Source: Catellatospora bangladeshensis
GTDB lineage: Bacteria > Actinomycetota > Actinomycetes > Mycobacteriales > Micromonosporaceae
Direction of reading: 5' to 3'
Length of the DNA: 64,000 nucleotides
Assembly: GCF_016862575.1 (NCBI RefSeq)
Contig: NZ_BONF01000009.1
Coordinates: 1 to 64,000 of the forward strand
The notes beneath the pieces were generated by a model. That model saw only the letters and a program-made list of their open reading frames with translations, did no database searches and was not told the DNA's origin. This document shows, in pieces, positions 4,393 to 50,123 of this stretch (the first letter of the stretch is position 1; every line of letters starts with the position of its first letter). The position numbers and the translations under genes were made by a program.

Positions 4393-5076
4393 ATGCCGTC
4401 CACCGCGCTCGCCCGACCGCTCGCCGCCGCCGGAACCGCGGCCGTCCTGCTCGGCATCCTGGCCGTCGGCGCGCTGCACGTGCTGCCGCCGACCGCCGAG
4501 ATCAGCCCGGTCCGGCGCACCATCAGCGAGTACGCCCTGCACGAGACCGCCTGGGTGTTCAACCTCGGGGTGCTCGTGCTGGCGCTCGGGTCGCTGGCGG
4601 TGTCGGCCGCGCTCGCGTACGCGGGCCAGCTCCGCATCGCCTCCGTCGCGGGCCTCGGCCTGCTGCTGTGGTCGCTGGGCCTGGCCGCGGTCGTCTACTT
4701 CCCGAAGCACGACTGGGCGGTCGGCCCGTCGCTGGACGGGCACCTGCACCGCGTCGCCAGCCTGGTCGCGTTCCTGAGCCTGCCGGTCGGCGCGCTGCTG
4801 GTCGTGCTCGCCTGGCGCCGTGACGCCCGCCGCCGCGCCGACGTGTGGCTGACCGCGCTGCCCGCGCTCGCGGCCCTGGCCATGTTCGGCGTGATCATCG
4901 GCGCGTTCCTGCTCCAGCCGTACACCGGCGTCGCCTGGTGGCGGGCCATCCCGCTGGGCGCGGTCGAGCGCGGCCTGGCCGTCTTCGAGGTGCTGACCGT
5001 GCTCGCCCTGGGCCGCTGGGCCTGGCGCGCCGCCACCGACGAAAGGAAGGGCGCCTTCTTAACGGACGTCCGTTAA
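4393..5076 (+). CDS. DUF998-like integral membrane protein
   Basis: A 227-residue protein with about six hydrophobic helices. The N-terminus carries T-I-S-E-Y-A-L-H after the first helix and Y-F-P-K-H-D between helices, as in DUF998 proteins. Substrate or role is unknown. The last 11 codons and the TAA lie inside repeat copy 1 (5041-5094): the C-terminal ERKGAFLTDVR is repeat-encoded. The native end was probably near residue 216, and the repeat has replaced or extended it. Confidence 0.75.
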   Translation: MPSTALARPLAAAGTAAVLLGILAVGALHVLPPTAEISPVRRTISEYALHETAWVFNLGVLVLALGSLAVSAALAYAGQLRIASVAGLGLLLWSLGLAAVVYFPKHDWAVGPSLDGHLHRVASLVAFLSLPVGALLVVLAWRRDARRRADVWLTALPALAALAMFGVIIGAFLLQPYTGVAWWRAIPLGAVERGLAVFEVLTVLALGRWAWRAATDERKGAFLTDVR

Positions 5077-5094
5077 GAAGGTGCCCTTCCTTTC
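5041..5094. repeat. stop-supplying palindromic repeat, copy 1
   Basis: A 54-bp inverted repeat. The left 27 bases begin GAAAGGAAGGGCGCC and end TTAACGGAC; the right half is their reverse complement except for one base. It lies between two convergent genes. It encodes the tail and TAA of the gene on the left and provides the TGA of the gene on the right. It has the most symmetrical layout of the seven copies. Confidence 0.9.
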
Positions 5095-6229
5095 AGGTGG
5101 CCGCGAGTGGGGCGGGGGTGGCGCGGCGCAGGAAGGCCCACGTGGTCAGGCCGACCGGGATGATCAGCCAGCAGGACAGCAGCCGGTATCCGATGACGAC
5201 GGCGGTGGCCGTCACCTCGTCCGCGCCTGCCGTGGTCAGCGCGGTGAGCAGGCTCGCCTCGATGACGCCGAGGCCGCCGGGGCTGATCGGGATCTGGCGG
5301 ACCAGCTGGACCACGACGTAGATCGTGCCGAGCTGGAGCAGGTCGAGCGGCAGCTGGAACGCCTGCGCCACGGCGGCCAGGCAGGCCAGGTCGGCGGCCC
5401 AGTTCGCGGCGGCGTAGCCGAGCGCGCCGAGGCGGTCGCGGGCCGGGATGGTGGTGGAGACCGCGACCACGTTGGCCAGCTGCTCGCCGAGCCGGGCGAG
5501 CCGGTGCCGCAGCCGGGTGACCGGCCGGTCGCCGTCCGCCAGCGCACGGGTGCGGTCGGCGGCCCTCGCGGCGCAGTTCCCGCTGGTACGCGTGGCGCCG
5601 GTGCGGTGCCGGATCCGCCGCCGGACCGCCAGCGCCGCGATCGAGGTGGCGGTCGCCAGGGTGAGCGCCGCGGCGGCCGGGTGCGTCTGCGCGGCCGTGG
5701 CGGGGGAGGACAGCAGCACGATCAGGAAGCCGGCCAGGTAGAGCAGGGCCAGCGCGGCGAACGTGGACAGGTTGGACAGCAGCACGACGGCCGTGGCGGA
5801 ATCGCGGTCGGCGCCCCAGCGCCGGTAGGACTGGTAGCCGAACGCGGCCGACAGGGCCGAGCCCGCGGGCAGGCTGCTGGCGATGGCCGAGCGGCTGTAG
5901 GTCACGGCCAGCGCGCTGCGCAGCGACACGGCGGTGCCGACGCCGCGCAGGAGCCGCACCTGCTGGCGGGCGAACATCGACAGCGACACCCACTCGGCGG
6001 CCAGTGCGATGCCCAGCCAGGTCAGGTCACCGCCGGTGAGCACGGGCCAGATCTCGTCCGGGCCGGGCACGCGGTCGCGGATGGTGAGCAGGGCCAGCAG
6101 GATCACCGCGACCGGGAGCAGCCGCCGCAGCCAGCGCTGCCAGCCCGGCCGGGCGCGGGCCGCGGGGGGCTCGTCGTCCGTGCCACGGGGGGTGTCGAGG
6201 AGGTCCTCGGCCGGCGGGGGCTGGCTCAC
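5093..6229 (-). CDS. lysylphosphatidylglycerol synthase-like integral membrane protein (UPF0104)
   Basis: About 378 residues from GTG 6229; a GTG at 6286 would add 19 residues. After a proline-rich cytosolic leader come about eight hydrophobic helices. The typical R-x-x-S-x-A segment (TYSRSAIASSLPAGSALSAA) lies near residue 120 and IPISPGGLGVIEASL near residue 315. These match the flippase-like domain of MprF-type proteins and the YbhN/AglD group, which lacks the aminoacyl-transferase domain. It probably handles a lipid in the cytoplasmic membrane. Its TGA stop is the terminal TGA of repeat copy 1. Confidence 0.82.
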   Translation of the reverse strand: MSQPPPAEDLLDTPRGTDDEPPAARARPGWQRWLRRLLPVAVILLALLTIRDRVPGPDEIWPVLTGGDLTWLGIALAAEWVSLSMFARQQVRLLRGVGTAVSLRSALAVTYSRSAIASSLPAGSALSAAFGYQSYRRWGADRDSATAVVLLSNLSTFAALALLYLAGFLIVLLSSPATAAQTHPAAAALTLATATSIAALAVRRRIRHRTGATRTSGNCAARAADRTRALADGDRPVTRLRHRLARLGEQLANVVAVSTTIPARDRLGALGYAAANWAADLACLAAVAQAFQLPLDLLQLGTIYVVVQLVRQIPISPGGLGVIEASLLTALTTAGADEVTATAVVIGYRLLSCWLIIPVGLTTWAFLRRATPAPLAAT

Positions 6230-6302
6230 GTTCTGTGACCATACCGGCCCGGTGATCGTTGTCGAGTGGCTCGTAATGTTGCCCACAGCGCGGCCCGGCC
6301 GC

Positions 6303-6896
6303 CTAGGCGAAGCGCTCGGCGGCGCGGTCCAGCCCGGCGCGGACGGCCTCGCCGAGCGAGGCGCCGCCGGGCTGCTCGGCCCACAGGCCGGTGGCCGTGC
6401 GCATGGTCACCAGGAACACCGCGGCCATGACCCGGGAGCGCATCGGCTCGTCGCGATGGCCGGGATCGCGGGCGGCGATCTCGGCCGCCAGCTCCAGCTC
6501 CAGCGCGTTCTGCGCGGCGGTCTGCTGGGCGAGCAGCGCCGGGTGGCGGCGCAGCAGCCGGACCTGGGCCAGCCAGTTCGGGTCGACCTCGCCGATGGCG
6601 GCGTGGTGCGCGGCGGTCGCCTCGGTCAGCGCCTGCCATGGCGGCTCGGTGAGGGGGCGGGCGCGCAGGCGCTCCAGCAGGCGGGTCACCCGGACCCGGT
6701 CGCCGTGCAGGAGGGCGTCCTCCTTGTTGGCGAAGTAGTTGGAGAACGTGCGCCGCGACACGCCCGCCTCGTCGGCCACGGCGTCGACGGTCACCGCGTC
6801 CAGGCCGCGTTCCAGGGCCAGCCGCAGGGTCGCCTCGTGCAGCGCCTGCCGGGTGGCTTCCTTCTTGCGCTCGCGCAGCGTCGTCGTCGCTTCCAC
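6303..6896 (-). CDS. TetR family transcriptional regulator
   Basis: A 197-residue regulator from GTG 6896. The N-terminal helix-turn-helix is clear: V-T-V-D-A-V-A-D-E-A-G-V-S-R-R-T-F-S-N-Y-F at about residues 30-50. The ligand domain is divergent, as expected. It is divergent from a DHA2 efflux gene, and two palindromes fill the 85-base gap. It is thus very likely the local repressor of the transporter and of itself. The start is uncertain by a few codons, because no clear ribosome-binding site precedes it. Confidence 0.88.
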   Translation of the reverse strand: MEATTTLRERKKEATRQALHEATLRLALERGLDAVTVDAVADEAGVSRRTFSNYFANKEDALLHGDRVRVTRLLERLRARPLTEPPWQALTEATAAHHAAIGEVDPNWLAQVRLLRRHPALLAQQTAAQNALELELAAEIAARDPGHRDEPMRSRVMAAVFLVTMRTATGLWAEQPGGASLGEAVRAGLDRAAERFA

Positions 6897-21771: not shown

Positions 21772-22434
21772 TCACGCGGCCTGCTGGCGGCGGACGATCT
21801 CGGTGATCCAGGTGGGGGCGAAGGGGGAGGTGCAGCCCGGGGGAGTGGGGTAGTCCTTGAGGACCTCGAGGCGCTCGCCGATGTCGAGGGCGCGGGCGCG
21901 GTGCTCGGGGTGGTCGATGCCGATCTGCGCGAGGCAGTGGTTCATCGCCCACTGCAGGCGGTCCGGCGCGCCCTTCATCTCGGCCTCGATGGTGTCGAGC
22001 AGACCGGGCAGGTCGAGACCGGCGGGCTGCTTCGCGACGCGTTCGGTCGTCAGCGCCCAGCCGGCGCTGGCGACCACCGGATCCGGGTCGGCGAACCAGG
22101 CCACGCGCAGCTCCTCAGCGTGCGGGCTCTTCTTCACCACGTAGTTGACCAGCCAGTCGTGCACCTTCGGGGCACGCGCCTCGCGCAGCATGGTGTCCAG
22201 CTCGTCCCGCGCGAACGCCTTCGGGCGGCAGATCAGCAGGGACAGCAGCCTGGCCGCGGTGTCGCCGGTCGCCCACAGCTCACGCGACAGCTCCTGCTGC
22301 GTCTTCAGCCGCTTCGCCACCGCCCGCAGCTTGCCCAGGTTCACCCCGTGGTCGTCGCCGTGCCGCTCGTTCACGGCCCGCGCCTTCGGGTCCTCCAGCG
22401 CGGCAAGCTCGGCCATCACCTCGGCCACGGTCAT
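21772..22434 (-). CDS. AlkD-like DNA alkylation repair HEAT-repeat protein
   Basis: 220 residues from ATG 22434, behind GAGGGAGGGGCCGGG. The all-helical sequence contains V-N-L-G-K-L-R-A-V-A-K-R-L at about 35-47, typical of the AlkC/AlkD fold, and repeated amphipathic helices with A-W-F-A-D-P-D-P-V-V-A-S-A-G-W-A-L. AlkD excises or binds cationic alkylated bases. The match is at the fold level, and the sub-group may lack glycosylase activity. Repeat copy 2 lies 39 bases upstream of its start. Confidence 0.75.
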   Translation of the reverse strand: MTVAEVMAELAALEDPKARAVNERHGDDHGVNLGKLRAVAKRLKTQQELSRELWATGDTAARLLSLLICRPKAFARDELDTMLREARAPKVHDWLVNYVVKKSPHAEELRVAWFADPDPVVASAGWALTTERVAKQPAGLDLPGLLDTIEAEMKGAPDRLQWAMNHCLAQIGIDHPEHRARALDIGERLEVLKDYPTPPGCTSPFAPTWITEIVRRQQAA

Positions 22435-22472: not shown

Positions 22473-22527
22473 GAAAGGAAGGGCACCCTCTTAACGCTTT
22501 CCGTAGAGGAAGGTGCCCTTCTTAACG
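22473..22527. repeat. stop-supplying palindromic repeat, copy 2
   Basis: GAAAGGAAGGGCACC...TTAACG, then CTTTCCGTAG, then AGGAAGGTGCCCTTC...TTAACG. It sits in a divergent gap (AlkD-like and histidine kinase starts), so it is not at a gene end and cannot work as a simple terminator here. Confidence 0.88.
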
Positions 22528-36323: not shown

Positions 36324-36400
36324 ACCGGTCCGGCACGCTCACCGTCCATGCCGGATGCAGCGCGCCCGTGCGCCTTGACACGGCATAGAAACATGTCCAC

Positions 36401-37003: not shown

Positions 37004-37034
37004 CCGGCGGGGCGTCGCCGCCTTCGCGCTGGTC

Positions 37035-37127: not shown

Positions 37128-37135
37128 TCGGGCGT

Positions 37136-37154
37136 CCGCGCGATCGTCGCGCGG
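37136..37154. promoter_or_regulatory. perfect 19-bp palindrome
   Basis: CCGCGCGA-TCG-TCGCGCGG, about 90 bases upstream of the secreted-protein gene at 37247. It could be an operator or the end-of-gene hairpin of the preceding frame. Confidence 0.45.
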
Positions 37155-37246
37155 CGGCAACTGATCATTCGTGTCGCGGCCATGTCGTGGGCGCTTGTTA
37201 CCGCCTAGTATCTCCATCCATCGATGTCGTTGGAAGGGGAGCGTGC

Positions 37247-38248
<1,002 letters not shown>

Positions 38249-38254
<6 letters not shown>

Positions 38255-39217
38255 AAGGAAGGGCACCTTCTTAACGCTATCCGTTGTGGAGGGTGCCCTT
38301 CTTAACAGGCCGTCCAGCAGGCGGGGGAGGCCGTAGTCGAAGACGGCGTCCAGGCTGAGGTCGAAGTCGTCGATCTCGGCGATGCGGGCCACCATCGGGA
38401 AGCCACCCAAGCCGATGATGCCGCCGAACAGCTCACCTTGCCGCTGCATCCACTCGTCGCTGGTCATCCCGGTGTGCTGGGCGGCCTGCGCCTCGGTCTC
38501 GAAGCCCATGGCCAGGCCGCGTACGAACCCGAACAGGCTGATGTTGACGTGCATCATCTCGGTCATCGGCAGACCCAGCGGGGCGAGGGCCGCCAGTACG
38601 AACTCGGTGTAGCGCATGCCGTGCGGCGCGAACTCCGGCCGGGTGATCGACATCGTCGGAGCCAGCCACGGGTGGCGCCGGAAGATGTCCCACAGGTGCC
38701 GGGCGGCCAGCTCCAGCTGCGCGTACGCGCCGCGCGGCGGCACCGAGGGCAGCGGCGCCTCGGCGAACGCGGCGTCGACCATCATCCGGACCAGGTCGTC
38801 CTTGCCGCGCACGTAGCGGTAGAGGCCCATGGTGGGCAGCTCGTGCTCGGCGGCGAGCCGGCGCATGGACACCGCGTCGAGTCCCTCGGCGTCGGCGAGC
38901 GCCAGCGCATGACGGATCACCTGGTCCCGGGTGGTGGTGTCGGCGGGCTCGGCGCGCGGGCGCCGCTCGCGCCGGGCGGGCGGCGCGGCCGGGGCGGGGG
39001 TGCGGTCCGCGACGACGGTGCCGACTCCGCGCACGGCGGTGACCAGTCCCTCGGTACGCAGCGCGGCCAGCACCTTCGTCGCGGTGGCCAGGGCCACGCC
39101 CCACTCGGCGGTGATCTGCCGCGCCGACGGCACCCGGTCGCCGGGGCGCAGTCGCCCGCTCTCGATGCGCCCCCGGATCTGCCCGACGATCTGCCGGTAC
39201 GGTGCCTCGCCGCTCAC
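38249..39217 (-). CDS. chimeric GntR-TetR transcriptional regulator
   Basis: 322 residues from GTG 39217 (the frame opens at 39259). Residues 1-72 are a GntR winged helix (P-Y-R-Q-I-V-G-Q-I-R-G-R-I at the start, G-D-R-V-P-S-A-R-Q). After a Pro/Arg linker, residues 92-150 are a TetR helix-turn-helix (V-S-M-R-R-L-A-A-E-H-E-L-P-T-M-G-L-Y-R-Y-V) and the rest a TetR ligand domain. Two DNA-binding units in one chain can read two half-sites. The C-terminal 19 residues, ending V-K-K-V-P-F-L-S, are encoded by repeat copy 3. It should control the divergent monooxygenase. Confidence 0.88.
38252..38306. repeat. stop-supplying palindromic repeat, copy 3
   Basis: TGAAAGGAAGGGCACC...TTAACGCTAT-CCGTTGTGGA-GGGTGCCCTTC-TTAAC. 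It provides the TGA of the left gene and the last 19 residues plus the TGA context of the right gene. The two stops share the palindrome TCATGA at 38249-38254. Confidence 0.9.
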
Positions 39218-39219
39218 GC

Positions 39220-39229
39220 GTACTAGTAC
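39220..39229. promoter_or_regulatory. operator box 1, GTACTAGTAC
   Basis: A perfect 10-bp palindrome, flanked as CGC and ACACC, lying three bases from the regulator's GTG start. It suggests autoregulation. Confidence 0.65.
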
Positions 39230-39273
39230 ACCACGGCCGTCCTCGCGCTCGCTCACCACGCCGACCTCGACCG

Positions 39274-39299
39274 GTGTACTAGGTAGCGTGCTAGTACAC
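39274..39299. promoter_or_regulatory. operator box 2, GTGTACTAG-N8-CTAGTACAC
   Basis: Two perfect 9-bp arms with an eight-base spacer in the middle of the divergent gap. Each arm is a half or a near-complete copy of box 1. Confidence 0.7.
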
Positions 39300-39353
39300 C
39301 CGGAACGCTGTTGCAGGCAGGATGTGCGTGCTCATACGGTTCACCCATCACGT

Positions 39354-39366
39354 TGTACACCGTACA
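39354..39366. promoter_or_regulatory. operator box 3, TGTAC-ACC-GTACA
   Basis: A perfect 13-bp palindrome 19 bases upstream of the monooxygenase ATG, sharing the TGTAC half-site with boxes 1 and 2. Confidence 0.6.
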
Positions 39367-39384
39367 CACTCTGGGGAGCGGACG

Positions 39385-40578
39385 ATGAGGACCAACACCG
39401 TACTGATCTCGGGCGCGAGCATCGCCGGACCGGCGCTGGCGTACTGGCTGCACCGGCACGGCTACGCCGTCACCGTGGTGGAGCGCGCGCCCGCGATCCG
39501 GCCCGGCGGGCACGCCGTCGACATCCGCGGCGTCGCCCGCGACGTCTGCGCGGCGATGGGCATCATGCCGCAGATCACCCGTGACCGGGTGCACGAGGAG
39601 GGCTTCGCGTGGGTCGACCCGGCCGGGCGGCGCACCTCGGAGATGCCCGCGAGCCTGTTCGGCGGCGAGGGCATCGTGGCCGAGTACGAGATCCTGCGCG
39701 GCGACCTCGCGCACATCCTCCACGAGGCCACCCGCGCCGACGCCGAGTACCGCTTCGGCGACCGGATCACCGCGCTGTCCGAAGGCGACGACGGCGTCGA
39801 GGTGACCTTCCGCAGCGGGCGTACCGAGCGCTACGACCTGGTGATCGGCGCGGACGGCATCCACTCGGGGGTGCGGGCGCTCGCGTTCGGGCCCGAGGAG
39901 CGTTTCATCCGGCGGCTGGGCGCGTACACCGCGTACTTCACCATGCCCGCGCAGCCGGACCTCGACCCGCACTGGTTCCTGATGCACGGGATCCCGGGCG
40001 GGCGCTGCGCCGGCATCCGGCCGGAGAACGAGCACACCGCCAAGGCTATGCTCTCCTTCCGCGCCGACGGTCGCACCGTCGATCCTCGTGACGTCGCTGC
40101 GCAGAAGGCGCTGCTGGCCGAGGTGTTCGCCGGGGCCGGCTGGCGGGTGCCGGCCATGCTCGACGCGATGGGGGACGCGCCCGACTTCTACTTCGACGTC
40201 ATCGGGCAGGTGCACATGGACCGGTGGAGCACCGGCCGGGTCGCGCTGCTCGGCGACGCGGGCTACTGCGCGTCCCCGCTCAGCGGCCTGGGCACCAGCA
40301 TGGGCCTGGTGGGGGCGTACCTGCTCGCCGGTGAGCTGGCCCGCTCCGGCGGCGACCACGTGACCGCGTTCGCGGCGTACGAGCGGCTGATGCGGCCGTA
40401 CGTGAAGCAGTGCCAGCAGCTGCCGCCCGGCGGCGTGCGGGGCATGCTGCCCGACTCCCGGTGGGCGATCAGCCTGCGCGACCTGAGCACCCGCATCATG
40501 ACCCGCCGCCCGTTCGCCGCCCTGATGGCCAAGCAGGCCGCCAAGGCCGACGCCATCACCCTCCCCGCCTACGCATAA
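39385..40578 (+). CDS. FAD-dependent monooxygenase (PHBH/TetX-like)
   Basis: 397 residues from ATG 39385, with GGGGAGCGG upstream. The FAD fold begins V-L-I-S-G-A-S-I-A-G-P-A-L-A (an S in the second glycine place, common here). The D-G motif is G-A-D-G-I-H-S-G-V-R, and the G-D motif is L-L-G-D-A-G-Y-C-A-S-P-L-S-G-L-G. Such class A flavoprotein enzymes hydroxylate aromatic or polyketide substrates, including tetracyclines. It is divergent from a regulator, the usual arrangement for inducible detoxification. Its TAA lies at the edge of repeat copy 4. Confidence 0.88.
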   Translation: MRTNTVLISGASIAGPALAYWLHRHGYAVTVVERAPAIRPGGHAVDIRGVARDVCAAMGIMPQITRDRVHEEGFAWVDPAGRRTSEMPASLFGGEGIVAEYEILRGDLAHILHEATRADAEYRFGDRITALSEGDDGVEVTFRSGRTERYDLVIGADGIHSGVRALAFGPEERFIRRLGAYTAYFTMPAQPDLDPHWFLMHGIPGGRCAGIRPENEHTAKAMLSFRADGRTVDPRDVAAQKALLAEVFAGAGWRVPAMLDAMGDAPDFYFDVIGQVHMDRWSTGRVALLGDAGYCASPLSGLGTSMGLVGAYLLAGELARSGGDHVTAFAAYERLMRPYVKQCQQLPPGGVRGMLPDSRWAISLRDLSTRIMTRRPFAALMAKQAAKADAITLPAYA

Positions 40579-40629
40579 GGAAGGGCACCTTCTTAACGCT
40601 ATGCGTAGAGGAAGGTGCCCTTCTTAACG
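40576..40629. repeat. stop-supplying palindromic repeat, copy 4
   Basis: TAAGGAAGGGCACC...TTAACGCTATGCGTAGAGGAAGGTGCCCTTCTTAACG. It supplies the monooxygenase TAA. The opposite gene ends 40 bases beyond the repeat, the one 3' end that does not stop inside it. Confidence 0.88.
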
Positions 40630-40668
40630 CTCACCCGCGGACGGCGCCAGACGCGACGGCCAGGCGCT

Positions 40669-40905
40669 TCAGCGCTGGTCGGCCGCCGAGGCGCCGTCGC
40701 GTCGTCCACCCGCGCCGCCGTTGCGGGCTCTGATCGCCTTCTGCAGGTCCGTCAGCTGGCGGGACAGCCGTCCGATCTCGGCGATGAGGTGCCGGGCCCG
40801 CTGGCGCAGGTCCGCGAACTCGCCGTCGAAGTCGGTCCGCCTCTGGTCGGCCGGCCTGGCGCGCCGTGACACGTCATTTCGGGGCGGCATGTCGGCCCAG
40901 CTCAT
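40669..40905 (-). CDS. small coiled-coil protein
   Basis: 78 residues from ATG 40905 behind GGAGAGGAG, a strong ribosome site. M-S-W-A-D-M-P-P opens the protein and a charged helix with heptad-like spacing (F-A-D-L-R-Q-R-A-R-H-L-I-A-E-I-G-R-L) fills the middle. The tail is Arg/Gly-rich and disordered. No family is recognised; a role in protein or nucleic-acid binding is possible. Confidence 0.6.
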   Translation of the reverse strand: MSWADMPPRNDVSRRARPADQRRTDFDGEFADLRQRARHLIAEIGRLSRQLTDLQKAIRARNGGAGGRRDGASAADQR

Positions 40906-41082
40906 GTCGCACTCCTCTCCATCGGACGCGCCTACCCGGCAGCGACCGCCCGAAACGGCCGGAGCGCGGACAATACTGTGATGTTTCTCCGCCGTACGGC
41001 TGCTCGCCCGGCACCAGGGGCGACGGCACGACCGTCGTGAAGCGCTACGCGCCGCGTCCCGGCGGGACCAGAGCACCGGCGA

Positions 41083-41138
41083 CGTTAAGAAGGTGCCCTT
41101 CCTCTACGCATAGCGTTAAGAAGGTGCCCTTCCTTTCA
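41083..41138. repeat. stop-supplying palindromic repeat, copy 5
   Basis: GTTAAGAAGGTGCCCTTC-CTCTACGCATAGC-GTTAAGAAGGTGCCCTTCCTTTCA. Here the two 20-base units are direct repeats. The terminal TCA is the TGA stop of the minus-strand gene on its right. Confidence 0.88.
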
Positions 41139-41720
41139 GTAGAGGTAGCGGCGGAGGAGGCGGCTGAGGAAGGGCATGACCAGGTAGGTGAGGAGGACGG
41201 AGAGCAGCAGGGGGATGATCGCGGCGCGGACCAGGTAGGGCAGGGGGAGTTCGGCGAGGTGTTCGGTGCCGAGCAGGTTGAAGATCAGGATCAGGGGGTA
41301 GACGCCGAGGAAGGAGACCAGGGCCATCTTCCACCTGGCGGGTGGTAGGACGGGGCGGCCGGGCAGGCTGAACCAGGTCTCCATGCCGGTGGTGGTCTCG
41401 CGCTGCTCGGCCTCCTCCGCGATCCCGGCCAGGTGCCGGACGGTGACCTCCCGCTCGGGCGAGGTGAGCCAGCGGCTGAGGTGGCGGCCGTTGTCGAAGC
41501 GCAGTACGCAGTGGTAGCGGCGCTGCTCCGCAGGTGTTCCTGCGGGCGGGCGCAGCCAGGTGACGCCGCGGTGCCCGGGAAACCGCGAAGACACCTGGTT
41601 GATCTCCTCCAGCCACCGCTCGAAGTCGGCCTCCCGGCCCGGCATGACCCGCCAGGTGAACAGCACGGAGACGGGTTCGTCGTCGGGCACCGGCCCCGCG
41701 GCCGCCGATCCCTCGATCAC
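41136..41720 (-). CDS. ABM-domain membrane protein
   Basis: 194 residues from GTG 41720. An ABM domain at about residues 16-110 (V-L-F-T-W-R-V-M-P-G-R-E-A-D-F, W-L-T-S-P-E-R) is followed by two membrane helices to the end. Such ABM-plus-helices proteins are of unknown activity. It lies 13 bases behind the molybdenum-subunit gene and is probably in that operon. Its TGA stop comes from repeat copy 5. Confidence 0.8.
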   Translation of the reverse strand: MIEGSAAAGPVPDDEPVSVLFTWRVMPGREADFERWLEEINQVSSRFPGHRGVTWLRPPAGTPAEQRRYHCVLRFDNGRHLSRWLTSPEREVTVRHLAGIAEEAEQRETTTGMETWFSLPGRPVLPPARWKMALVSFLGVYPLILIFNLLGTEHLAELPLPYLVRAAIIPLLLSVLLTYLVMPFLSRLLRRYLY

Positions 41721-41733
41721 CGGCGGCCCGTCC

Positions 41734-43968
41734 TCACAGCACGCTCTCGATCGTGATCGGCAGCCGGTGGTGGCGGCGGCCGGTGGCGTGCCAGATCGCG
41801 TTGGCGATCGCGGCGGCGGTGCCGACCATGCTGACCTCGCCGATGCCCTTGACTCCCAGCGGGTTCACCACCGTGTCGGTGGTCTCGACCGTCTCGATGA
41901 GCACGTCGGGCGCGTCGGCGTTGACGGGCACCAGGTACTCGCCGAGGCTGGCGTTGGACCAGCGGCCGGCCGGGTCCATCACGGTGCCCTCCAGCAGGGC
42001 CTGGCTCATACCCCAGAGCATGCCGCCCATCAGCTGGCTGTGCGCGGTCTTGCGGTTGAGCACCCGCCCCGGGTCGAACACGCCGATCAGGCGCCGCACC
42101 CGGCACAGGCCCAGCTCGGGGTCCACCGCCACCTGCGCGAACTGTGCGCCGAACGTCATCGTGCCGTAGCCGGTGCCCATCATGCTGGGCGGGTTCCACG
42201 TGCCCAGCGCCTCGGCGTCGGTCATGTTCGCGCGCTGCAGCAGCTCGGCGTAGGACTCGCCGGTGTCCGGGCGCTCCCGCAGGTGCATCCGGCCCTCGGT
42301 CACGGTGATCTGCCCCGGGTCGGCGCCGTGCAGCGGCGAGCGCTCGTCGGCCACCGCCTGGGCGATCAGCTGGTCGCGCAGCGCCGTCGTCGCCACGTGC
42401 ACCGCGGCGCTGACCATCCCGGCCCCGGCCGAGCCGACGGCCGCGGCCGTGTTGGGCAGATCCGTGTCGCCGTACTGGACGCGCACCCGCTCCAGCGGCA
42501 GGCCCAGCCCGTCCGCGGCGACCTGCGTCATCACCGTCGCCGAGCCGGTGCCGAAGTCGGCGAAGCTGGACTGCACCACGGCGCTGCCGTCGGCGAAGAT
42601 GCGGGCGCGGGCCCGTTGCGGCCCGCCGGGCGGCGTCACCGGGTACGCGGAGCTGGCCATGCCCCAGCCGAGCAGCCAGTTGCCGTCGCGCTCGCGGCCG
42701 GGCCGCGGGTCGCGTTCGGACCAGCGGGCCAGCTCCGCGCCGCGCTGGTAGCACTCGCGCAGCCCCTTGCTGGACCACGGGTTGCCGGTGCCCGGCTCGG
42801 TCTCGGCGTAGTTGCGCAGCCGGATCTCCAGCGGGTCGAGGTCGAGCCGCTCGGCCAGCTCGTCGAGCGCGGTCTCCATGACGAACATGCCCGCCGCCTC
42901 GCCGGGGCACCGGGTGAACGTCGGGGTCATCGTGTTGGCCTTGATCAGGCGGTAGACGCCCTCGTAGTTGTCGCAGGCGTACATGCTCGACGCGACGCTC
43001 AGCGACGGTTCGGCCCAGTCGTCGAAGTGCGAGGTGGGGGAGAGCTTGTGATGGCGGATCGCCGTCAGCCGCCCGTCGCGGTCCGCCCCCAGGACGATCC
43101 GCATCTCCTGCTCCTCGCGGTGGCCGCAGCCGCTGAACATCTGCTCGCGGCTCAGCGCCAGCCGCACCGGCCGGTGCACCGCGCGCGCCGCGAGCGCCGA
43201 CAGCGCCGGGTGGGCCCAGATCATCGCCTTGCAGCCGAAGCTGCCGCCGACGTAGCCGGTGACCACGCGGATATGCGACGGCATGATGTTGAGCAGCTCG
43301 GCGACGGTGTGCAGGGTCGCGTTGGGACCCTGGGTCGAGTCGTATAGGGTGAGCCGGTCGCCCTCCCAGACCGCCGTGGTCGCCGAGCACTCGATCGGGT
43401 TGTGGTGGTTGGCGGCGAGGTGGTAGCTCAGGTCCACCGTCTCGGCGGCCTCGGCGAGCCCGGCCGCCGCGTCGCCGCGGGTGATACGGCCCGGGATGAA
43501 CCCCGCGAAGATCTTCTCCGCCTCGTACGCCCGGTCGCGTCCCTGCTCGATGGTGGTGATCGCGGGGGTGTGCTCGTAGGTGATGTGCACCAGCCGCGCC
43601 GCGTGCTCGGCCCGGTCCAGGGTGTCGGCGACCACGACGGCCAGCGGCTGTCCCGCGTAGTGGATCACCTCGTCCTGCATCGGGAAGAACGTCTGGCCGG
43701 ACGCGGCCGCGCCGAACAGCGACGGCAGCAGCGCCGGCACCGACCCGCCCTTGGGCAGGTTCAGGTGGTGCAGTACGGCGAGCACGCCCTCGGCCCGCTC
43801 GGCGTCGTAGGTGTCGAGGTGCCCGATCCGGCCGCTCGGGATGCGTGAGGTGACCAGCACCGCGTGCACCAGGCCGGGCAGCGCGATCTCGGCCGAGTAG
43901 CGGCCCGCGCCGGTGATCTTCGCCAGCCCGTCGACGCGGTCCACGGGGCGCCCGATGGCGGTGCTCAC
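41734..43968 (-). CDS. molybdopterin-binding subunit, xanthine/aldehyde oxidoreductase family
   Basis: 744 residues, the usual size for the split large subunit. The family's catalytic glutamate is in G-V-K-G-I-G-E-V-S-M near residue 710. Other cofactor contacts are G-Y-V-G-G-S-F-G-C-K and G-S-A-G-A-G-M-V. Together with the two genes before it, it forms a PaoABC-like enzyme oxidising aldehydes or purines with water. Its start overlaps the FAD-subunit stop by four bases. A cofactor sulfurase or XdhC-type factor is not in the window. Confidence 0.92.
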   Translation of the reverse strand: MSTAIGRPVDRVDGLAKITGAGRYSAEIALPGLVHAVLVTSRIPSGRIGHLDTYDAERAEGVLAVLHHLNLPKGGSVPALLPSLFGAAASGQTFFPMQDEVIHYAGQPLAVVVADTLDRAEHAARLVHITYEHTPAITTIEQGRDRAYEAEKIFAGFIPGRITRGDAAAGLAEAAETVDLSYHLAANHHNPIECSATTAVWEGDRLTLYDSTQGPNATLHTVAELLNIMPSHIRVVTGYVGGSFGCKAMIWAHPALSALAARAVHRPVRLALSREQMFSGCGHREEQEMRIVLGADRDGRLTAIRHHKLSPTSHFDDWAEPSLSVASSMYACDNYEGVYRLIKANTMTPTFTRCPGEAAGMFVMETALDELAERLDLDPLEIRLRNYAETEPGTGNPWSSKGLRECYQRGAELARWSERDPRPGRERDGNWLLGWGMASSAYPVTPPGGPQRARARIFADGSAVVQSSFADFGTGSATVMTQVAADGLGLPLERVRVQYGDTDLPNTAAAVGSAGAGMVSAAVHVATTALRDQLIAQAVADERSPLHGADPGQITVTEGRMHLRERPDTGESYAELLQRANMTDAEALGTWNPPSMMGTGYGTMTFGAQFAQVAVDPELGLCRVRRLIGVFDPGRVLNRKTAHSQLMGGMLWGMSQALLEGTVMDPAGRWSNASLGEYLVPVNADAPDVLIETVETTDTVVNPLGVKGIGEVSMVGTAAAIANAIWHATGRRHHRLPITIESVL

Positions 43969-44960
43969 GAGACGTCTCCTCTCGCGGCGAGGGTCTCCAG
44001 CGCGCGGACCATGGTGCGCTGCGCCAGCTCGATCTTGAACTCATTCATGGGCCGGGCAACGGCATCCGACATCTCCTCGGCCGCCGCACGGGCGAACGAC
44101 TCGCGGGTCGCGGGCTGCCCGAGCAGCGCGCGCTCGGCCCGGCGGGCCCGCCACGGCTTGGTCGCCACGCCGCCCAGGGCCAGCCGCACCTCGGCCACCA
44201 CGCCGTTCTCGAGCCGCAGCGCGCACGCCGCCGAGGCCAGCGCGAACTCGTACGACTCCCGGTCGCGCACCTTGAGGTACAGCGAGTTGCGGCCCACGGG
44301 CAGCGCCGGCACCTCGATCGCGGTGATCAGGTCACCGTGGTTGAGCGGGTGCTCCCGCTGCGGGGTGCCCCCGGGCAGCAGGAAGAAGTCGTCGATCGGG
44401 TACGCGTGGTGGCCGCCGGTGTTCTGCACGTGGATGACGGCGTCCAGCGCGGTCAGCGCCACCGCGACGTCGGACGGGTGGGTCGCGATGCAATGCTTGC
44501 TCGTGCCCAGCACCGCGTGACCGCGGTTGACGCCGGTCAGCGCGTCGCAGCCGCTGCCCGGCTCGCGCTTGTTGCAGGACGCCTCCGCGTCGCGGAAGTA
44601 CGTGCACCGGGTGCGCTGCAGCATGTTGCCGCCCATCGAGGCCATGTTGCGCAGCTGCGCCGACGCCCCGAGCACCAGCGCTTCGGAGATCACCGGGAAT
44701 CGCTCCATGACCAGCGGCGCCATCGCGACGTCGTTCATCCGGGCCATCGCGCCGATCCGCAGCGCGCCGTCGGGCTGCACCTCGATGTGGTCGATGGGCA
44801 GGTCGTTGATGTCGACCAGGCGCTGCGACGCCTCGGCGTAGATGCGCAGCATGTCCACCTTGGTGGTGCCGCCGGCCAGGTACGCGGCGCCCGCGTCGGC
44901 GGTGACGGTGGCGATCGCGGTGGCCACGTCGCGGACTCGGGAGTAGCTAACGGGCCGCAC
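43965..44960 (-). CDS. FAD-binding subunit with extra 4Fe-4S site (PaoB-like)
   Basis: 331 residues from GTG 44960. The FAD site A-G-G-T-T-K-V-D and G-A-S-A-Q-L-R-N-M-A-S-M-G-G-N-M are typical of molybdenum hydroxylase medium subunits. Four cysteines, Cys119, 129, 138 and 157 (R-C-T-Y-F-R-D, A-S-C-N-K-R, S-G-C-D-A-L, K-H-C-I-A-T-H-P-S-D), match the inserted [4Fe-4S] loop of Escherichia coli PaoB. It passes electrons between the 2Fe-2S subunit and FAD. It overlaps both neighbours. Confidence 0.93.
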   Translation of the reverse strand: MRPVSYSRVRDVATAIATVTADAGAAYLAGGTTKVDMLRIYAEASQRLVDINDLPIDHIEVQPDGALRIGAMARMNDVAMAPLVMERFPVISEALVLGASAQLRNMASMGGNMLQRTRCTYFRDAEASCNKREPGSGCDALTGVNRGHAVLGTSKHCIATHPSDVAVALTALDAVIHVQNTGGHHAYPIDDFFLLPGGTPQREHPLNHGDLITAIEVPALPVGRNSLYLKVRDRESYEFALASAACALRLENGVVAEVRLALGGVATKPWRARRAERALLGQPATRESFARAAAEEMSDAVARPMNEFKIELAQRTMVRALETLAARGDVS

Positions 44961-45474
44961 TGCCCACCCCTCCCACGCCGTCGCGCACGTCGCGGATCGC
45001 GGTGCGGATGTTCGGGTACGCCGCGCAGCGGCAGATGTTGCCGCTCATCCACTCGGCGATCTCGGCGTCGGAGCCGGCGTGCCCCTCGGCCAGCAGCGCG
45101 ACGGCCGACATGATCTGGCCCGGGGTGCAGTAGCCGCACTGGAACGCGTCCTCGGACAGGAACGCCTTCTGCATCGGGTGCAGGATGCCGTTCTCGGCCA
45201 GGCCCTCGATCGTGGTGATCTCGCGGCCCTCGCAGGCGATGGCCAGGGTGAGGCAGGCGACGACGCGCCGCTTGTCGACCCATACCGTGCACGCGCCGCA
45301 GGCGCCCTGGTTGCAGCCCTTCTTGGCACCGGTGAGGTTCATGTGGTCGCGCAGGCAGTCCAGCAGGCTGACCCGCGGCTCGATACGCACCACGTGCGTG
45401 GCGCCGTTGACGTTGAGCACTACGTCGACCGGACCCGGGCCCTGCACCGCGTCCGGCAGATGGGAAGCCACCAT
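44947..45474 (-). CDS. 2Fe-2S subunit (PaoA-like)
   Basis: 175 residues from ATG 45474 behind GGAGGAGGAGC. Two [2Fe-2S] sites: Cys54, 59, 62 and 74 in the plant-ferredoxin part, and Cys113, 116, 148 and 150 in the helical part. Unlike Escherichia coli PaoA, no Tat leader is present, so the complex should be cytosolic. First gene of the operon; the FAD gene starts inside its end (14-base overlap). Confidence 0.93.
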   Translation of the reverse strand: MVASHLPDAVQGPGPVDVVLNVNGATHVVRIEPRVSLLDCLRDHMNLTGAKKGCNQGACGACTVWVDKRRVVACLTLAIACEGREITTIEGLAENGILHPMQKAFLSEDAFQCGYCTPGQIMSAVALLAEGHAGSDAEIAEWMSGNICRCAAYPNIRTAIRDVRDGVGGVGSAAR

Positions 45475-45594
45475 CGCTCCTCCTCCTACGCGCCTCACGC
45501 CACGCTATAGCAGCTGGCCGGGCTTATCGGGGCGAATACGCATAGTCTGGACAAGGTCGGGTCGCGTGTCGTACCCGGGCCGCATGATCGCGCG

Positions 45595-45957
45595 ATGGCA
45601 ACCTCCGCGAACCGGCTCGACCGGTATCCCGTCGACGAGCACGGCAACCTGGAGCACTACCCGAGCAGCGTCCACACCTGGCAGGGGCGCGTCGTCGACA
45701 ACGGCCAGCTGTGGTCGGCGGGCAACGAGCCGTTCGCGGCCGAGCTCACCTTCGTGGACGGCCGGCGGGGGCGCTCCGCGGCGGTCTTCGAATGGCGTGA
45801 CGCGGCCGGCCGGGTGTACCCGATGTTCATGACGGACCTGCTCGACGTCCTCCACCACAAGGTGGTGGAGCGCGGCGTCGTGCGCGGTGTCTGGCAGGTG
45901 CGCAAGCGCGGCCAGAACTACGGGCTCGCCCTGGCCCCGGGCGAGCTGCCCGCCTGA
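45595..45957 (+). CDS. hypothetical protein
   Basis: 120 residues from ATG 45595. Soluble, with conserved-looking Y-P-V-D-E-H-G-N-L, W-R-D-A-A-G-R-V-Y-P-M-F-M-T-D-L and a basic V-R-K-R-G-Q-N-Y-G-L. The pattern F-x-W-R-D-x-x-G-R-x-Y-P-M-F suggests a small beta-rich binding domain. I do not recognise the family. No clear ribosome site precedes it. It is divergent from the molybdenum enzyme operon and 69 bases before phosphoketolase. Confidence 0.68.
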   Translation: MATSANRLDRYPVDEHGNLEHYPSSVHTWQGRVVDNGQLWSAGNEPFAAELTFVDGRRGRSAAVFEWRDAAGRVYPMFMTDLLDVLHHKVVERGVVRGVWQVRKRGQNYGLALAPGELPA

Positions 45958-46026
45958 GCTGCTCCGGCACCCGGAAAAGCGGACGAAGTGCCTGCGTAGC
46001 GCGTTGCGGCAGGCGAGGATCAGCAC

Positions 46027-48426
46027 ATGACGGTGACAGAGCGACCGGGCGCCGGGCACACCGCCGGTGTGACGCATCTCCGCGATGACGATCTGAGCAG
46101 GCTCGACGCCTGGTGGCGGGCGGCCAACTACCTGACCGTGGGCCAGATCTACCTGATGGGCAACCCGCTGCTGCGCGAGCCGCTGCTGCCCGAGCACATC
46201 AAACCCCGGCTGCTCGGCCACTGGGGCACGAGCCCCGGCCTCAACATGCTGTGGGCCCACCTCAACCGCACCATCACCAACCGCGACCTCAACGCCATGT
46301 TCATCTGCGGTCCCGGCCACGGCGGCCCGGCGATCGTGGCGAACACCTGGCTGGAGGGCACCTACAGCGAGCTGTACCCGAGCGTGGACCGCAGCGAGGC
46401 GGGCATGGGGCGGCTGTTCCGCCAGTTCTCGTTCCCGGGCGGCATCCCCAGCCATGTGGCGGCGGAGGTGCCGGGCTCCATCCACGAGGGCGGCGAGCTG
46501 GGCTACTCGCTGATGCACGCCTACGGCGCGGCGCTGGACAACCCCGGGCTGGTGGTGGCCTGCGTGATCGGCGACGGGGAGGCCGAGACCGGGCCGCTGG
46601 CGTGCAGCTGGCTGGCGAACACGTTCCTCAGCCCGGTGACCGACGGTGTGGTGCTGCCGATCCTGCACCTCAACGGCTACAAGATCGCCAACCCGACGGT
46701 GCTGGCCCGGATCCCCGAGCACGACCTGATGGCGATGATGCACGGGTTCGGGTACCGGCCGATCCTGGTCTCGGGGCACGACCCGGTGCGGGTGCACCAC
46801 GAACTGGCGTACGCCCTGGACACCGCGCTCGACGAGATCGCCGGCATCCAGGCCCGCGCCCGGCAGGGCGCCGACGGGCAGCGGCCGCGCTGGCCGATGA
46901 TCATCCTGCGTACGCCGAAGGGCTGGACCGGCCCCAGGATCGTCGACGGCGTGCCGGTCGAGGGCACGTTCCGGGCGCACCAGGTGCCGCTGTCCACCGT
47001 GCGCGACAACCCCGAGCACCTGGCGCAGCTGGAGCAGTGGCTGCGCTCGTACCGGCCGGAGGAGCTGTTCGACGCGACCGGCGCGCCGATGGGCTTCCTC
47101 GCCCCGCTGGCCCCGCGGGCGGCCCGGCGGATGAGCGCCAACCCGCATACCAACGGCGGCCTGCTGCTGCGCGACCTGGTCCTGCCCGACATCCGGGCGT
47201 ACGCCGCCGACGTGCCCGCACCGGGTACGCCCGTCGCCGAGGCGACCCGGGCGCTCGGGGTGTGGCTGCGCGACGTGATCCGCGCCAATCCGGACCGGTT
47301 CCGGCTGTTCGGGCCGGACGAGGTCAACTCGAACCGGCTCAACGCCGTGTTCGAGGTGACCGACCGCGAGTTCGACGCGCAGATCTACGAGGGCGACGAC
47401 CACCTGGCGCAGTCCGGCCGGGTCATCGAGGTGCTGTCCGAGCACCTGTGCGAGGGCCTGCTGGAGGGCTACCTCCTCACCGGCCGGCACGGCCTGCTCA
47501 CCAGCTACGAGGCGTTCATCCACGTCGTCGACTCGATGGTCAACCAGCACGCGAAGTGGCTCAAGGTGACCCGCGGCATCGAGTGGCGCCGGCCCATCGC
47601 GTCGCTGACCTACCTGCTGTCCAGCCACGTGTGGCGCCAGGACCACAACGGCTTCTCGCACCAGGACCCCGGGTTCATCGACCACGTGGTGAACAAGAAG
47701 GCCGAGGTGTGCCGGATCTACCTGCCGCCGGACACCAACACGCTGCTGTCGACGATGGACCACTGCCTGCGCAGCCGCAACTACATCAACGTGGTGGTGG
47801 CCGGCAAACAGCCGCAGCCGTCCTGGCTGAGCATGACCGAGGCGGCCCTGCACTGCCGCCGCGGCCTGGGCATCTGGAACTGGGCCAGCAACGACGCGGG
47901 CGGGGTGCCGGACGTGGTGATGGCGTGCGCCGGGGACGTGCCCACGCTGGAGACGCTGGCCGCCGTCGACCTGCTCCAGCGCTACCTGCCCGAGCTGCGG
48001 GTGCGGGTGGTCAACGTGGTGGACCTGATGCGCCTGCAGCCGGAGAGCGAGCACCCGCACGGCCTGCCGGACGCCCAGTTCGACGCGATCTTCACGGTGG
48101 ACCGGCCGGTGATCTTCGCGTACCACGGCTATCCGACGCTGATCCACCGGCTCACCTACCGGCGTACCAACCACGGCAACATCCACGTGCGCGGGTACAA
48201 GGAGGAGGGCACCACGACCACGCCGTTCGACATGGTGATGCTGAACGACCTGGACCGCTACCGGCTGGTCATCGACGTCATCGACCGGGTGCCGGGGCTG
48301 GGCGTGAGCGCGGCCGGGCTGCGCCAGTACATGACCGACGCCCGGCAGCGAGCCCGCGACCACACCCGCGCGTACGGGCAGGACGCCCCCGACATCACCG
48401 ACTGGACCTGGCCGGGGCGCCGATGA
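46027..48426 (+). CDS. xfp: phosphoketolase (xylulose 5-/fructose 6-phosphate)
   Basis: 799 residues, full length. Family motifs: [16 protein letters not shown] (about 37-52), G-P-G-H-G-G-P-A (thiamine-diphosphate site), [10 protein letters not shown] and the G-D-G-E-A-E-T-G motif with the ThDP aspartate. It splits xylulose or fructose phosphate with inorganic phosphate to acetyl phosphate, which yields ATP via acetate kinase. The kinase and phosphotransacetylase are not in the window. Its stop overlaps the start of a universal stress protein gene (ATGA). Confidence 0.96.
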
Positions 48427-49358
48427 ACAGTCTCGACGCCGGGGCAGGCCCGGCCATGAACACCGAGGAGGGCGGCGCCCGGCCGGTCGTCGTCGGCGCC
48501 GACGGATCGGAGTCGTCGCTGGCCGCGGTGCGCATCGCCACCCGCGAGGCGGCCTGGCGGCAGCTGCCGCTGCGCATCGTGCACGCGTTCATCTGGCCGC
48601 TGATGCACGTCAAGATGGGCCCGTCGGAGGCCGGGCCGCAGGAGGGCGGACTGCGCCACGACGCCGAGCGCACCCTCGCCGCGGCGGCGGCCGTCGCCCG
48701 GGAGGCCGACCCGTCGGTCTCCGTGCTCACCGACCTGGTCACCGGCGCGCCCTCGCCGGTGCTGCTGCGCGCCGCCCGCGACGCGGAGCTGCTGGTCATC
48801 GGCGACCGCGGGCTCGGCGGGTTCACCGGGCTGCTGGTCGGGTCGGTCGCGGTGCAGTGCACGGCGCACGGGCGTACGCCGGTGCTGGTCGTGCGCGGCG
48901 AGCGCCGCGACGAGGGCCCGGTCGTGGTCGGCGTCGACGGATCGCCGGACTCGGTGCGCACCATCGAGGCGGCGTTCGAGGAGGCCGCCATGCGCGACAC
49001 CGAGGTGCTGGCCGTGCACAGCTGGTCCCGCGCCGGCGGCCACGGCCACGGCGAGCACCACGACCACAAGCACGACGCGGCCACCGTCGCGCAGGAGGAG
49101 GGGCACCTGCTGGAGGACGCCCTGGCCGCCGTACGCAAGGACTACCCCGACGTCAAGGTCCGCGAGCACCTGCTCCGCGGCCGCCCCGCCAAGGTCCTGG
49201 TCGAACTGAGCAAGCAGGCGCAGCTCGTGGTCGTCGGCGCCCACGGCCGCGGCGGCTTCACCGGCCTGCTCCTCGGCTCGGTCAGCCACCAGGTCCTCCA
49301 CCACGCCGACAGCCCCGTCCTCGTCATCCCCCGCACCGAAGGAAGGGCACCTTCTTAA
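48423..49358 (+). CDS. tandem universal stress protein with His-rich loop
   Basis: 311 residues from ATG 48423. Two UspA domains, about residues 20-160 and 163-305, each with V-V-G-A/V-D-G-S at its start and G-x-R/H-G-x-G-G-F-T-G-L-L-x-G-S-V at its ATP loop, so both keep the G-2x-G-9x-G-S motif. Between them lies a loop [13 protein letters not shown], able to bind a divalent metal. It is coupled to phosphoketolase. The last six residues, E-G-R-A-P-S, and TAA come from repeat copy 6. Confidence 0.92.
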
Positions 49359-49391
49359 CGGTTTCCGTAGAGGAAGGGCACCTTCTTAACG
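49338..49391. repeat. stop-supplying palindromic repeat, copy 6
   Basis: GAAGGAAGGGCACC...TTAACGG-TTTCCGTAGA-GGAAGGGCACCTTCTTAACG, with the two units as direct repeats. It ends the stress-protein gene on the left and supplies the TAA for the minus-strand gene on the right. Confidence 0.9.
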
Positions 49392-50021
49392 CGGCCCCTG
49401 CGCAGCGCTGCGGGCCAGGATCGCCGGGTCGACCAGGCCGGCCGGGTCCCACTCGGCACCGTCGTCGCAGGCGGCCACGGCGGCGAGGAAATCCGCCTCG
49501 ACCGGGCGCAGGTGCTCGATCAGCGCGGGGACCGGGTGAGGGTACGCGAAGCGGGCAGCCGCGGAGCCGACCAGCAGCACCGCGAGCGGCTGATCCCCGC
49601 TGAGCGGCAGGTCGGGGTAGACGTGGCCACCCCAGTGCAGGACCGCGGACTCGGCGCCTGCGTCGGCGAACCGGCCCGCCCCGGCGAGCATCAGCAGGTC
49701 CGTCTGGGTGCCGTAGGAGTCGCCGTGGTAGTCGTACAGGTACACCTCCAGCGCGCCGTCCCGGTGCCGGGCCAGCGTCATCCCGCCCGCCGCGCGCTCG
49801 GCGAGCCGGTCCAGGGGTGTGCCCGCCCGCGCGGCCAGGATGCCGGCCGCGACCGCCGGGTAGGCCGCAAGCTGGCCGAGCGCCCAGTCGGCGGCGGCGC
49901 CGTCGTTGCCCCAGCCACGCCACATCGCGTCGGGGTTCTCGACGGCCTCGACACCCGGCAGCGGGGTGCTGAGCCAGCCCTCGAAGCCGGTGCGCGACAT
50001 CGGGATCCGTGCCGCGACCAT
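49386..50021 (-). CDS. hypothetical protein
   Basis: 211 residues from ATG 50021; GTG 50039 is an alternative. Soluble; M-W-R-G-W-G-N-D near residue 33, Y-L-Y-D-Y-H-G-D-S-Y-G and A-V-L-H-W-G-G-H-V-Y-P in the middle, a charged C-terminus. I do not recognise a family. The aromatic, acidic nature is shared with immunity-type proteins. The TAA stop comes from repeat copy 6, and repeat copy 7 lies upstream of its start, so it is flanked by repeats on both sides. Confidence 0.68.
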   Translation of the reverse strand: MVAARIPMSRTGFEGWLSTPLPGVEAVENPDAMWRGWGNDGAAADWALGQLAAYPAVAAGILAARAGTPLDRLAERAAGGMTLARHRDGALEVYLYDYHGDSYGTQTDLLMLAGAGRFADAGAESAVLHWGGHVYPDLPLSGDQPLAVLLVGSAAARFAYPHPVPALIEHLRPVEADFLAAVAACDDGAEWDPAGLVDPAILARSAAQGPR

Positions 50022-50071
50022 GTACGACCGTCCACTCACGGCCAGACCGTAGCCCACCTGCCCGACAGGGT

Positions 50072-50123
50072 TAGGAAGGGCACCTTCTACTACGGAAAGC
50101 GATAACAAGGTGCCCTTCCTTTC
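50072..50123. repeat. stop-supplying palindromic repeat, copy 7
   Basis: TTAGGAAGGGCACCTTC-TACTACGGAAAGCGATAACAAGG-TGCCCTTCCTTTC. The outward inverted layout is like copy 1. It lies in a divergent gap between the hypothetical gene and SulP, again without a gene end. Confidence 0.86.

Follow-up and report, generated by a model that had tools for sequence, protein, structure and literature searches.

A short palindromic repeat that adjoins stop codons in Catellatospora bangladeshensis

The first 64,000 nucleotides of contig NZ_BONF01000009.1 of Catellatospora bangladeshensis (assembly GCF_016862575.1; this whole stretch is referred to as the window) contain seven copies of a short palindromic repeat, some of which hold the stop codons of adjacent genes. 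What accounts for this arrangement? A sequence-only reading of the DNA had offered two answers: either the repeat is targeted to stop codons, or selection retains only the insertions that end genes cleanly. The analysis described here does not support targeting; retention of copies where they are tolerated fits better. The explanation that we favor, at a probability of roughly 60%, is a palindromic repeat of the kind of the repetitive extragenic palindromes (REPs) or the Rickettsia palindromic elements (RPEs), which would have spread without strict site choice, would have been kept where harmless or helpful, and would act as a 3'-end signal at gene ends.

The genome of the window itself is called G000, and G001 to G010 are the other genomes of the genus, of which G007 is a sister with about 95% identity; L-numbers denote fetched loci. 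Four window copies are also named by the position of their core: 22477 (22473), 38257 (38252), 40579 (40576) and 49341 (49338).

Results

The repeat and its hairpin

All seven copies were found at the places first reported. The 20-mer from which they had been recognized has 12 matches in the window at up to 3 mismatches and none in 100 dinucleotide shuffles; searched against the full genome of 8.83 Mb, a check that the sequence-only reading had proposed, it gave 350 matches at up to 2 mismatches and a reversed-pattern control gave none. On its canonical strand the repeat reads GAAA-GGAAGGGCACCTTC-TTAACGCTATGCGTAGAG-GAAGGTGCCCTTC-TTAACG, with a 51 nt hairpin core; the repeat is A-rich at its left end (GAAAGG) and has TTAACG at its right. 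Two units of about 20 nt together make up one long hairpin, and each half is in itself nearly self-complementary (GAAGG..CCTTC). The right half carries GGTGCCC in 68 and GGGCACC in 22 of the 90 copies of 51 nt, and window copies of both kinds fold. Directly before GGAAGGG stand the two bases AA in all 88 copies scored. One reading frame through the repeat is open.

The folding energies of the seven window copies range from -25.6 to -43.1 kcal/mol, and in no case was any of 200 shuffles as stable. The hairpin is also kept in diverged copies: 49 copies have at least 2 changes, none of which falls in the left unit, and 43 of these 49 fold more stably than the median of random mutants with an equal number of changes.

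A longer form, with a nested palindrome (GTCGGCTCGCGTCAGCGAGACGAGC...) in the loop, was observed in L139 (the ortholog of L084:2764), L076 (the ortholog of window copy 38257), L207 and L115:762-845.

Placement relative to genes and stop codons

Placement was scored in 93 full-length copies, taken from the window and from 100 listed places among the 350 genome matches, all 100 of them exact; these formed 104 clusters, from which 9 short fragments and 2 duplicates were removed. Gene calls came from a codon model with the window and fetched stretches of G000 as training data, so the annotation is not a curated one, and the calls were checked by Pfam matches on 15 proteins only, one of them a shadow open reading frame (ORF).

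With the repeat in canonical orientation, the left and right neighbors are + - at 48 copies, + + at 30, - - at 8 and - + at 6, the remaining copy having no left gene. Convergent pairs are enriched (33 of 60 pairs with a copy versus 35 of 226 without, p=2e-9), and between genes of the same direction one orientation prevails (30 versus 8, p=0.0005). A gene 3' end overlaps the copy or lies within 12 nt of it in 76 of the 93 cases, while 6 copies lie between two gene starts. The left (GAAA) end faces a gene 3' end in 78 copies, and in 49 of these the stop overlaps the repeat core or the GAAA end; at the right end the facing stop is inside the repeat in 8 of 57. The stop-hugging described for the window is therefore present genome-wide, in a weaker and one-sided form.

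Ordinary downstream hairpins at the same loci provided a reference. The median distance from stop to repeat is 2 nt, compared with 12 nt for 91 such hairpins, and the stop lies inside or at most 3 nt away in 49 of 74 copies versus 11 of the 91 (Fisher p=4e-13); 74 of the 78 left neighbors entered this test, those at -398, -65, +560 and +809 nt lying beyond the distances that it covers. Placement is non-random with respect to stops, as had been claimed, and the majority of copies overlap, abut or immediately follow the stop of an upstream gene of the same direction.

The adjoining stops also differ in kind: TGA 32, TAA 28 and TAG 10 (n=70), against TGA 178, TAG 27 and TAA 9 elsewhere (n=214). 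The commonest junction, in 17 of the 70, is a TGA exactly 2 nt before the core; next come nine cases in which TTAACG provides the TAA after the tail GRAPS, and five with a TAA directly at the core. There are several routes by which a stop can be supplied: a host T followed by the GA of GAAAGG gives TGA, a host T followed by AA gives TAA, and the TAA within TTAACG closes one frame after GRAPS. The preferred TGA junction is one argument for target choice, in which an enzyme would insert the repeat at or just behind stops, for example where a TGA is completed by the GA of the repeat. Another is position -5, at which T is the commonest base in abutting copies (22 of 46) and the rarest in free ones (5 of 32). 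Such targeting nevertheless appears improbable in view of the host gene ends, to which we now turn.

Host gene ends with and without a copy

In the window, nine gene 3' ends had been said to face a copy, eight of them stopping inside it. The codon-model calls also give nine, at 5041 (both sides), 38252 (both), 40576 (both), 41083 (one) and 49338 (both), but 22473 is not among them. In seven of these genes the stop falls within the repeat or spans its outer TGAAAGG/TAAGG end, and an eighth can be added only if abutting is counted: the right-hand gene at 38252, with the tail KKVPFLS, crosses the whole repeat and stops just beyond the GAAA end. The ninth, on the right-hand side of the 40576 copy, has its stop 39 nt before the repeat. 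Copies 22473 and 50072 lie between gene starts. The tail GRAPS is real in the 49338 gene, but the tail ...KGRAPS at 22473 belongs to an antisense shadow. This 511-aa ORF, 20959-22494(+), was rejected as a gene: its codon score is -145 versus +127 for the minus-strand gene opposite, which matches PF08713 (DNA_alkylation, E=1e-20), while the shadow ORF has no Pfam match. Its 18 matches in a contig search were disregarded as antisense echoes.

Orthologous sites were compared in up to ten genus genomes, and nine left-side host genes had an element-free ortholog. Five of these hosts have a changed C-terminus, one is a single residue shorter and three have kept their length (38257 versus G006, L105:410 versus G010, and L105:7273 versus five species). 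The slightly shortened host is that of L084:11169 (versus six). All C-termini given below are followed directly by the stop. Among the changed hosts, that of 40579 ends in PAYA where the 6 of 6 element-free orthologs have KSY or KAY. The 41083 host falls three residues short of its counterparts in all 9 of the element-free species compared (YLY versus FLYDRR, FLYGRR or FLYSGS), and that of 49341 ends in PRTEGRAPS versus PRATG, PRGGG or PRPAA, again in 9 of 9; in these two the proposal that the repeat supplies stops and terminal residues is borne out. The L105:2927 host is at least one residue shorter than 9 of 9 orthologs, and that of L105:9839 is 12 residues shorter than in G007 and G005. At the last site the weak rows of G010, G002, G006, G003 and G001 represent a different FAD gene and were dropped, and the G007 row was scored as element-bearing only through the copy of the next gene within 110 nt. 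The changes range from one residue gained to twelve lost.

Since the host end has changed at five of nine sites, precise targeting of stop codons is not supported. Copies inside genes, in frame, and copies between gene starts (22473, 50072) also speak against it, as does the absence of a Y1 transposase from G000. To judge from these alignments, stops are indeed supplied by the repeat, yet an exact landing on an existing stop is not how this comes about. One further site, L105:11824, has the repeat in both sisters: G007 stops at a TGA, and G000 has AAA there and continues to the TAA of the repeat, which by comparison of the two sequences is a lost stop caught by the repeat.

Strong unrelated folds are found at the same place in element-free relatives of 40579 (5 of 6) and L105:7273 (5 of 6 rows). 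The idea that the repeat replaces an old terminator as a general rule was discarded; strong folds are hardly commoner in element-free orthologs (20 of 48) than in controls (15 of 51).

Other recurring palindromes (GGCCTATCT... and GCAGTTTC.GGGAAA.TGC) were seen behind stops in element-free species, and the genus may have several repeat families at gene ends. A second repeated palindrome (TTGATCGTCCGACTTGCCTGGCA...TGGCAAGTTGGATGATCAA), with many matches in genus genomes, is present at L084:8459-8536.

Copies inside proteins

For two of the 93 copies the surrounding sequence is a called gene with coding signal on both flanks, and using one of these two as a query uncovered two further cases. A protein with one translated variant served as the query through which sixteen open-frame stretches were fetched, so L191, L193 and L195 are biased toward that variant; the L193 copy proved to be a C-terminal tail and not internal. 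One copy sits between the catalytic and the trimerization domain of a GH42 beta-galactosidase. This copy is read in the frame RKGTFLT...VEEG in G000 and G007 and in another frame (EGRAPS.RSA) in G010, G006, G003, G001, G002 (at the DNA level) and G005 (by protein alignment); G004, G008 and G009 have none. Copies read in the EGRAPS.RSA frame have TTATCG, TTGCCG, TTGTCG or a different stop-free form in place of TTAACG, so that in-gene copies carry stop-avoiding alleles in the frame needing them.

A protein with a CysS_C tail has the copy in 9 of 10 genus relatives by protein alignment, the G002 gene being split and left unjudged. All 54 bases of this copy are identical in G000, G007, G010 and G003, whose proteins are 82-94% identical. 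In a TIGR03817 helicase the copy is right behind the DEAD domain. The variable loop of the L195 protein has the short form in G000, G002, G006, G004 and G009, the longer nested form in G007 and G003, remnants in G010 and G005, and an unrelated palindrome in G008; G001 has no match.

In L214 (G008) an unrelated in-frame palindrome (CCAGATCTTGTGCGTCTGGTG...CACCAGACGCACAAGATCTGG) was noted at the same protein loop that holds the repeat elsewhere.

Distribution and spread

The repeat is present in 11 of 11 genus genomes, at 42 to 350 units each, and in 12 of the 41 genomes of that search. Within the family, 37 of the 150 genomes surveyed have matches, and these belong to 9 of the 44 genera. None of 11 named actinobacterial genomes contains the 20-mer (of the 18 loci from the shadow-ORF search, 11 were examined). 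Carriage by plasmids or phages was rejected, as a search of both collections with the 55-nt consensus gave no match; viral contigs have no exact match of a 19-mer.

This patchy copy number would suit a selfish repeat that has no function, one whose presence at gene ends and in linkers is simply tolerated and whose hairpin does nothing for the host. Loss or absence at orthologous sites is in keeping with this, as is the occurrence of different palindromes in one protein loop. We nevertheless regard an idle repeat as doubtful, given the same-direction bias of 30 to 8 and the retention of the hairpin in diverged copies. The 54 of 54 bases shared by four species also argue against it, although conversion between copies may also be the cause.

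When 15 sites of G000 were examined in the sister genome, 13 had a copy, and 22477 and L105:9839 did not. The pooled core identity of 0.835 was left unused, as 4 of the 13 pairs are misregistered or rearranged (41083, L084:2764, L105:2927 and L105:11824). At 4 of the 13 (38257, L084:4682, L084:11169 and L105:410) the loop version differs blockwise (..AACGCTAT.. versus ..ATCGTTTTCC..), with changes going either way. The G007 copy at L105:2927 gives a better match in reverse orientation and sits where G000 has about 1.5 kb extra (L105:1440-2932), a stretch bounded by the copy. The loop swaps and this reversal suggest exchange between copies or template switching. Exchanged loops are also compatible with ordinary terminators that were made alike by recombination between gene ends, without mobility, and so are the unrelated hairpins in the same place in relatives of 40579 and L105:7273. 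In-gene copies, copies between gene starts, the lack of a T-run and a stop proximity far exceeding that of ordinary hairpins make such an origin highly improbable.

The Y1 transposase (PF01797) has no match in G000 and has matches in 6 of 11 genomes; of the 9 Y1 loci fetched from relatives, the 8 that were examined lack the repeat arm. An origin of the repeat from a REP-associated tyrosine transposase (RAYT) is accordingly unsupported for G000. At site pairs with and without a copy, the flanks are too divergent for a target-site duplication to be read.

Discussion

In the explanation that we favor, copies would spread without strict choice of site and be kept at gene ends and in linkers, where they are harmless or helpful. 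At a gene end the RNA hairpin may act as a 3'-end signal, either as a terminator or as a shield against 3' decay, and between convergent genes possibly for both of them. The hairpin and the fact that it is retained point to such a role, as do the strand and convergent bias and the unrelated strong folds at 40579 and L105:7273. Stop supply would be a by-product of the tight spacing, with point mutations and small deletions as fine adjustment. The one open frame allows copies to persist in frame inside proteins.

Several points weigh against this explanation. The T-run expected after a terminator hairpin is missing, the tail being TTAACG, and a simple terminator scan of 36000-52000, restricted to loops of 3-8, gave none at the copies. 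In Escherichia coli, a terminator 5 bp behind a stop drops from about 90% to below 10% efficiency, most of its activity being silenced by ribosomes (PMC4824070), so stop-hugging should weaken a plain terminator. Strong folds (z<=-2, mononucleotide shuffles) occur in 20 of 48 element-free orthologs, and the two sets of control gene ends have them in 11 of 35 and 4 of 16. No mobilizing enzyme was found in a search confined to Y1 transposases. Finally, young copies in which one unit is perfect are overrepresented in the set of 93, and the left unit is conserved there as an artifact of how the copies were selected.

A bolder proposal, which we put forward as speculative and rather unlikely, is that the repeat is a mobile gene-end cassette whose closeness to the stop makes 3'-end formation depend on ribosomes reaching that stop. 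Since a copy would combine stops in two of the three sense frames with one open frame and a 3' hairpin that works on either strand, its landing near a gene end would give a clean end, and its landing in a linker a tolerated peptide. If so, a translation-coupled gene end would be common to hundreds of genes.

By comparison of genomes, a short repeat is seen here to rewrite gene ends: a lost stop is caught, TAA rises about tenfold beside the repeat, and the hairpin is kept inside proteins. Hundreds of near-identical copies together with a sister genome of about 95% identity make the question of targeting versus selection a countable one, and a hairpin 2 nt behind the stop offers a ready test case for translation-dependent 3'-end formation in high-GC bacteria.

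Copies and genes in the window

Table 1. Repeat copies in the window and the genes next to them
Feature	Coordinates	Strand	Remarks
Repeat copy	5041..5094	-	46-nt core, near-perfect palindrome, between two convergent genes; -43.1 kcal/mol
Repeat copy	22473..22527	+	between two divergent genes, away from gene 3' ends; absent at the site in G007
Repeat copy	38253..38307	+	after gene 37247-38254 (TGAAAGG); right-hand gene reads through (tail KKVPFLS)
Repeat copy	40577..40629	+	immediately after stop TAA of gene 39385-40578
Repeat copy	41083..41137	-	supplies TGA to gene 41136-41720(-)
Repeat copy	49339..49391	+	tail EGRAPS and stop TAA for gene 48423-49358; CGT TAA for opposite gene
Repeat copy	50069..50123	-	between two divergent gene starts; among six other species compared, copy only in G007
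DUF998 gene (PF06197)	4393..5076	+	final ~12 residues (ERKGAFLTDVR, then stop) repeat-encoded
LPG_synthase_TM gene (PF03706)	5093..6229	-	ends in TGAAAGG
DNA alkylation repair gene (PF08713)	21772..22434	-	real gene opposite shadow ORF 20959-22494(+)
Host gene without Pfam match	37247..38254	+	stop 2 nt ahead of 38257 core
GntR/TetR_C_1 regulator	38249..39217	-	reads through repeat
FAD_binding_3 gene	39385..40578	+	ends in PAYA and stop at repeat
ABM-domain gene (PF03992)	41136..41720	-	ends TAC TGA AAGG
Universal stress protein gene	48423..49358	+	ends in repeat-encoded GRAPS

The site at 38253 has a copy or its remains in 7 of the 8 other genus genomes with data and none in G006, whereas six other species lack the copy at 40577, and in five of the six a strong unrelated fold is found. 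Between two copies, about 0.5 kb (window 49393-49870) is missing in G007, which has only 117 bases between the matched stretches.

Comparison with known repeats

The repeat has no counterpart in Rfam, which gave 0 matches in the window at gathering scores, and a literature search by repeat sequence strings returned no paper with it, only an unrelated human-gene match. An intrinsic terminator is likewise a GC-rich hairpin, but has the T-run that is missing here. Mycobacterial interspersed repetitive units (MIRUs), another actinobacterial repeat tied to stops, are inserted at stop-start overlaps, occur in tandem and keep translational coupling; the present repeat is a single hairpin.

DNA-uptake-sequence hairpins that serve as terminators similarly consist of two close copies of a unit that form a hairpin behind genes (PMC2267715); nothing seen in the present repeat, in an analysis not aimed at uptake, speaks for such a role. 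The SPRITE, BOX and RUP repeats of Streptococcus pneumoniae are also dispersed, terminator-like hairpins, nested in each other (PMC10969869); they are of unrelated sequence and host, and were set apart without a sequence comparison. RPEs are palindromes inserted in frame in unrelated proteins, with a conserved open frame (PMC2229807, PMC10969869), and in-frame insertion is seen here in four genes with coding signal on both sides. They differ in length, about 100-150 bp against a core of 51 nt, though a longer nested form exists, and in that most of the present copies are at stop codons and 2 of 93 inside genes.

With REPs in general the repeat shares a short palindrome in many copies, chiefly 3' of genes or between convergent ORFs, and the donation of stop codons to flanking ORFs. 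REPs tagged by GTAG or CGTC are short palindromes lying mostly behind genes, between convergent or same-direction ORFs; those with GTAG are often less than 20 bp from 3' ends, and their termini often supply the stop TAG to flanking ORFs (PMC3733652). The main text of that paper does not contain the terms Actinobacteria, Streptomyces, Micromonospora or Salinispora. GTAG precedes the left arm in 0 of 90 copies here and is found in the loop in 75 of 90; the Y1/RAYT gene is absent from G000; TGA and TAA account for most of the stops gained; and the genome is that of a high-GC actinomycete. Some REP copies lie inside ORFs, where the authors suggest linkers or loops, so that both stop-supplying REPs and REPs inside ORFs are already published (PMC3733652). 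Because the repeat shows the general features of REPs and lacks the terminal GTAG and the RAYT, we file it as a variant among the known REP-like repeats.

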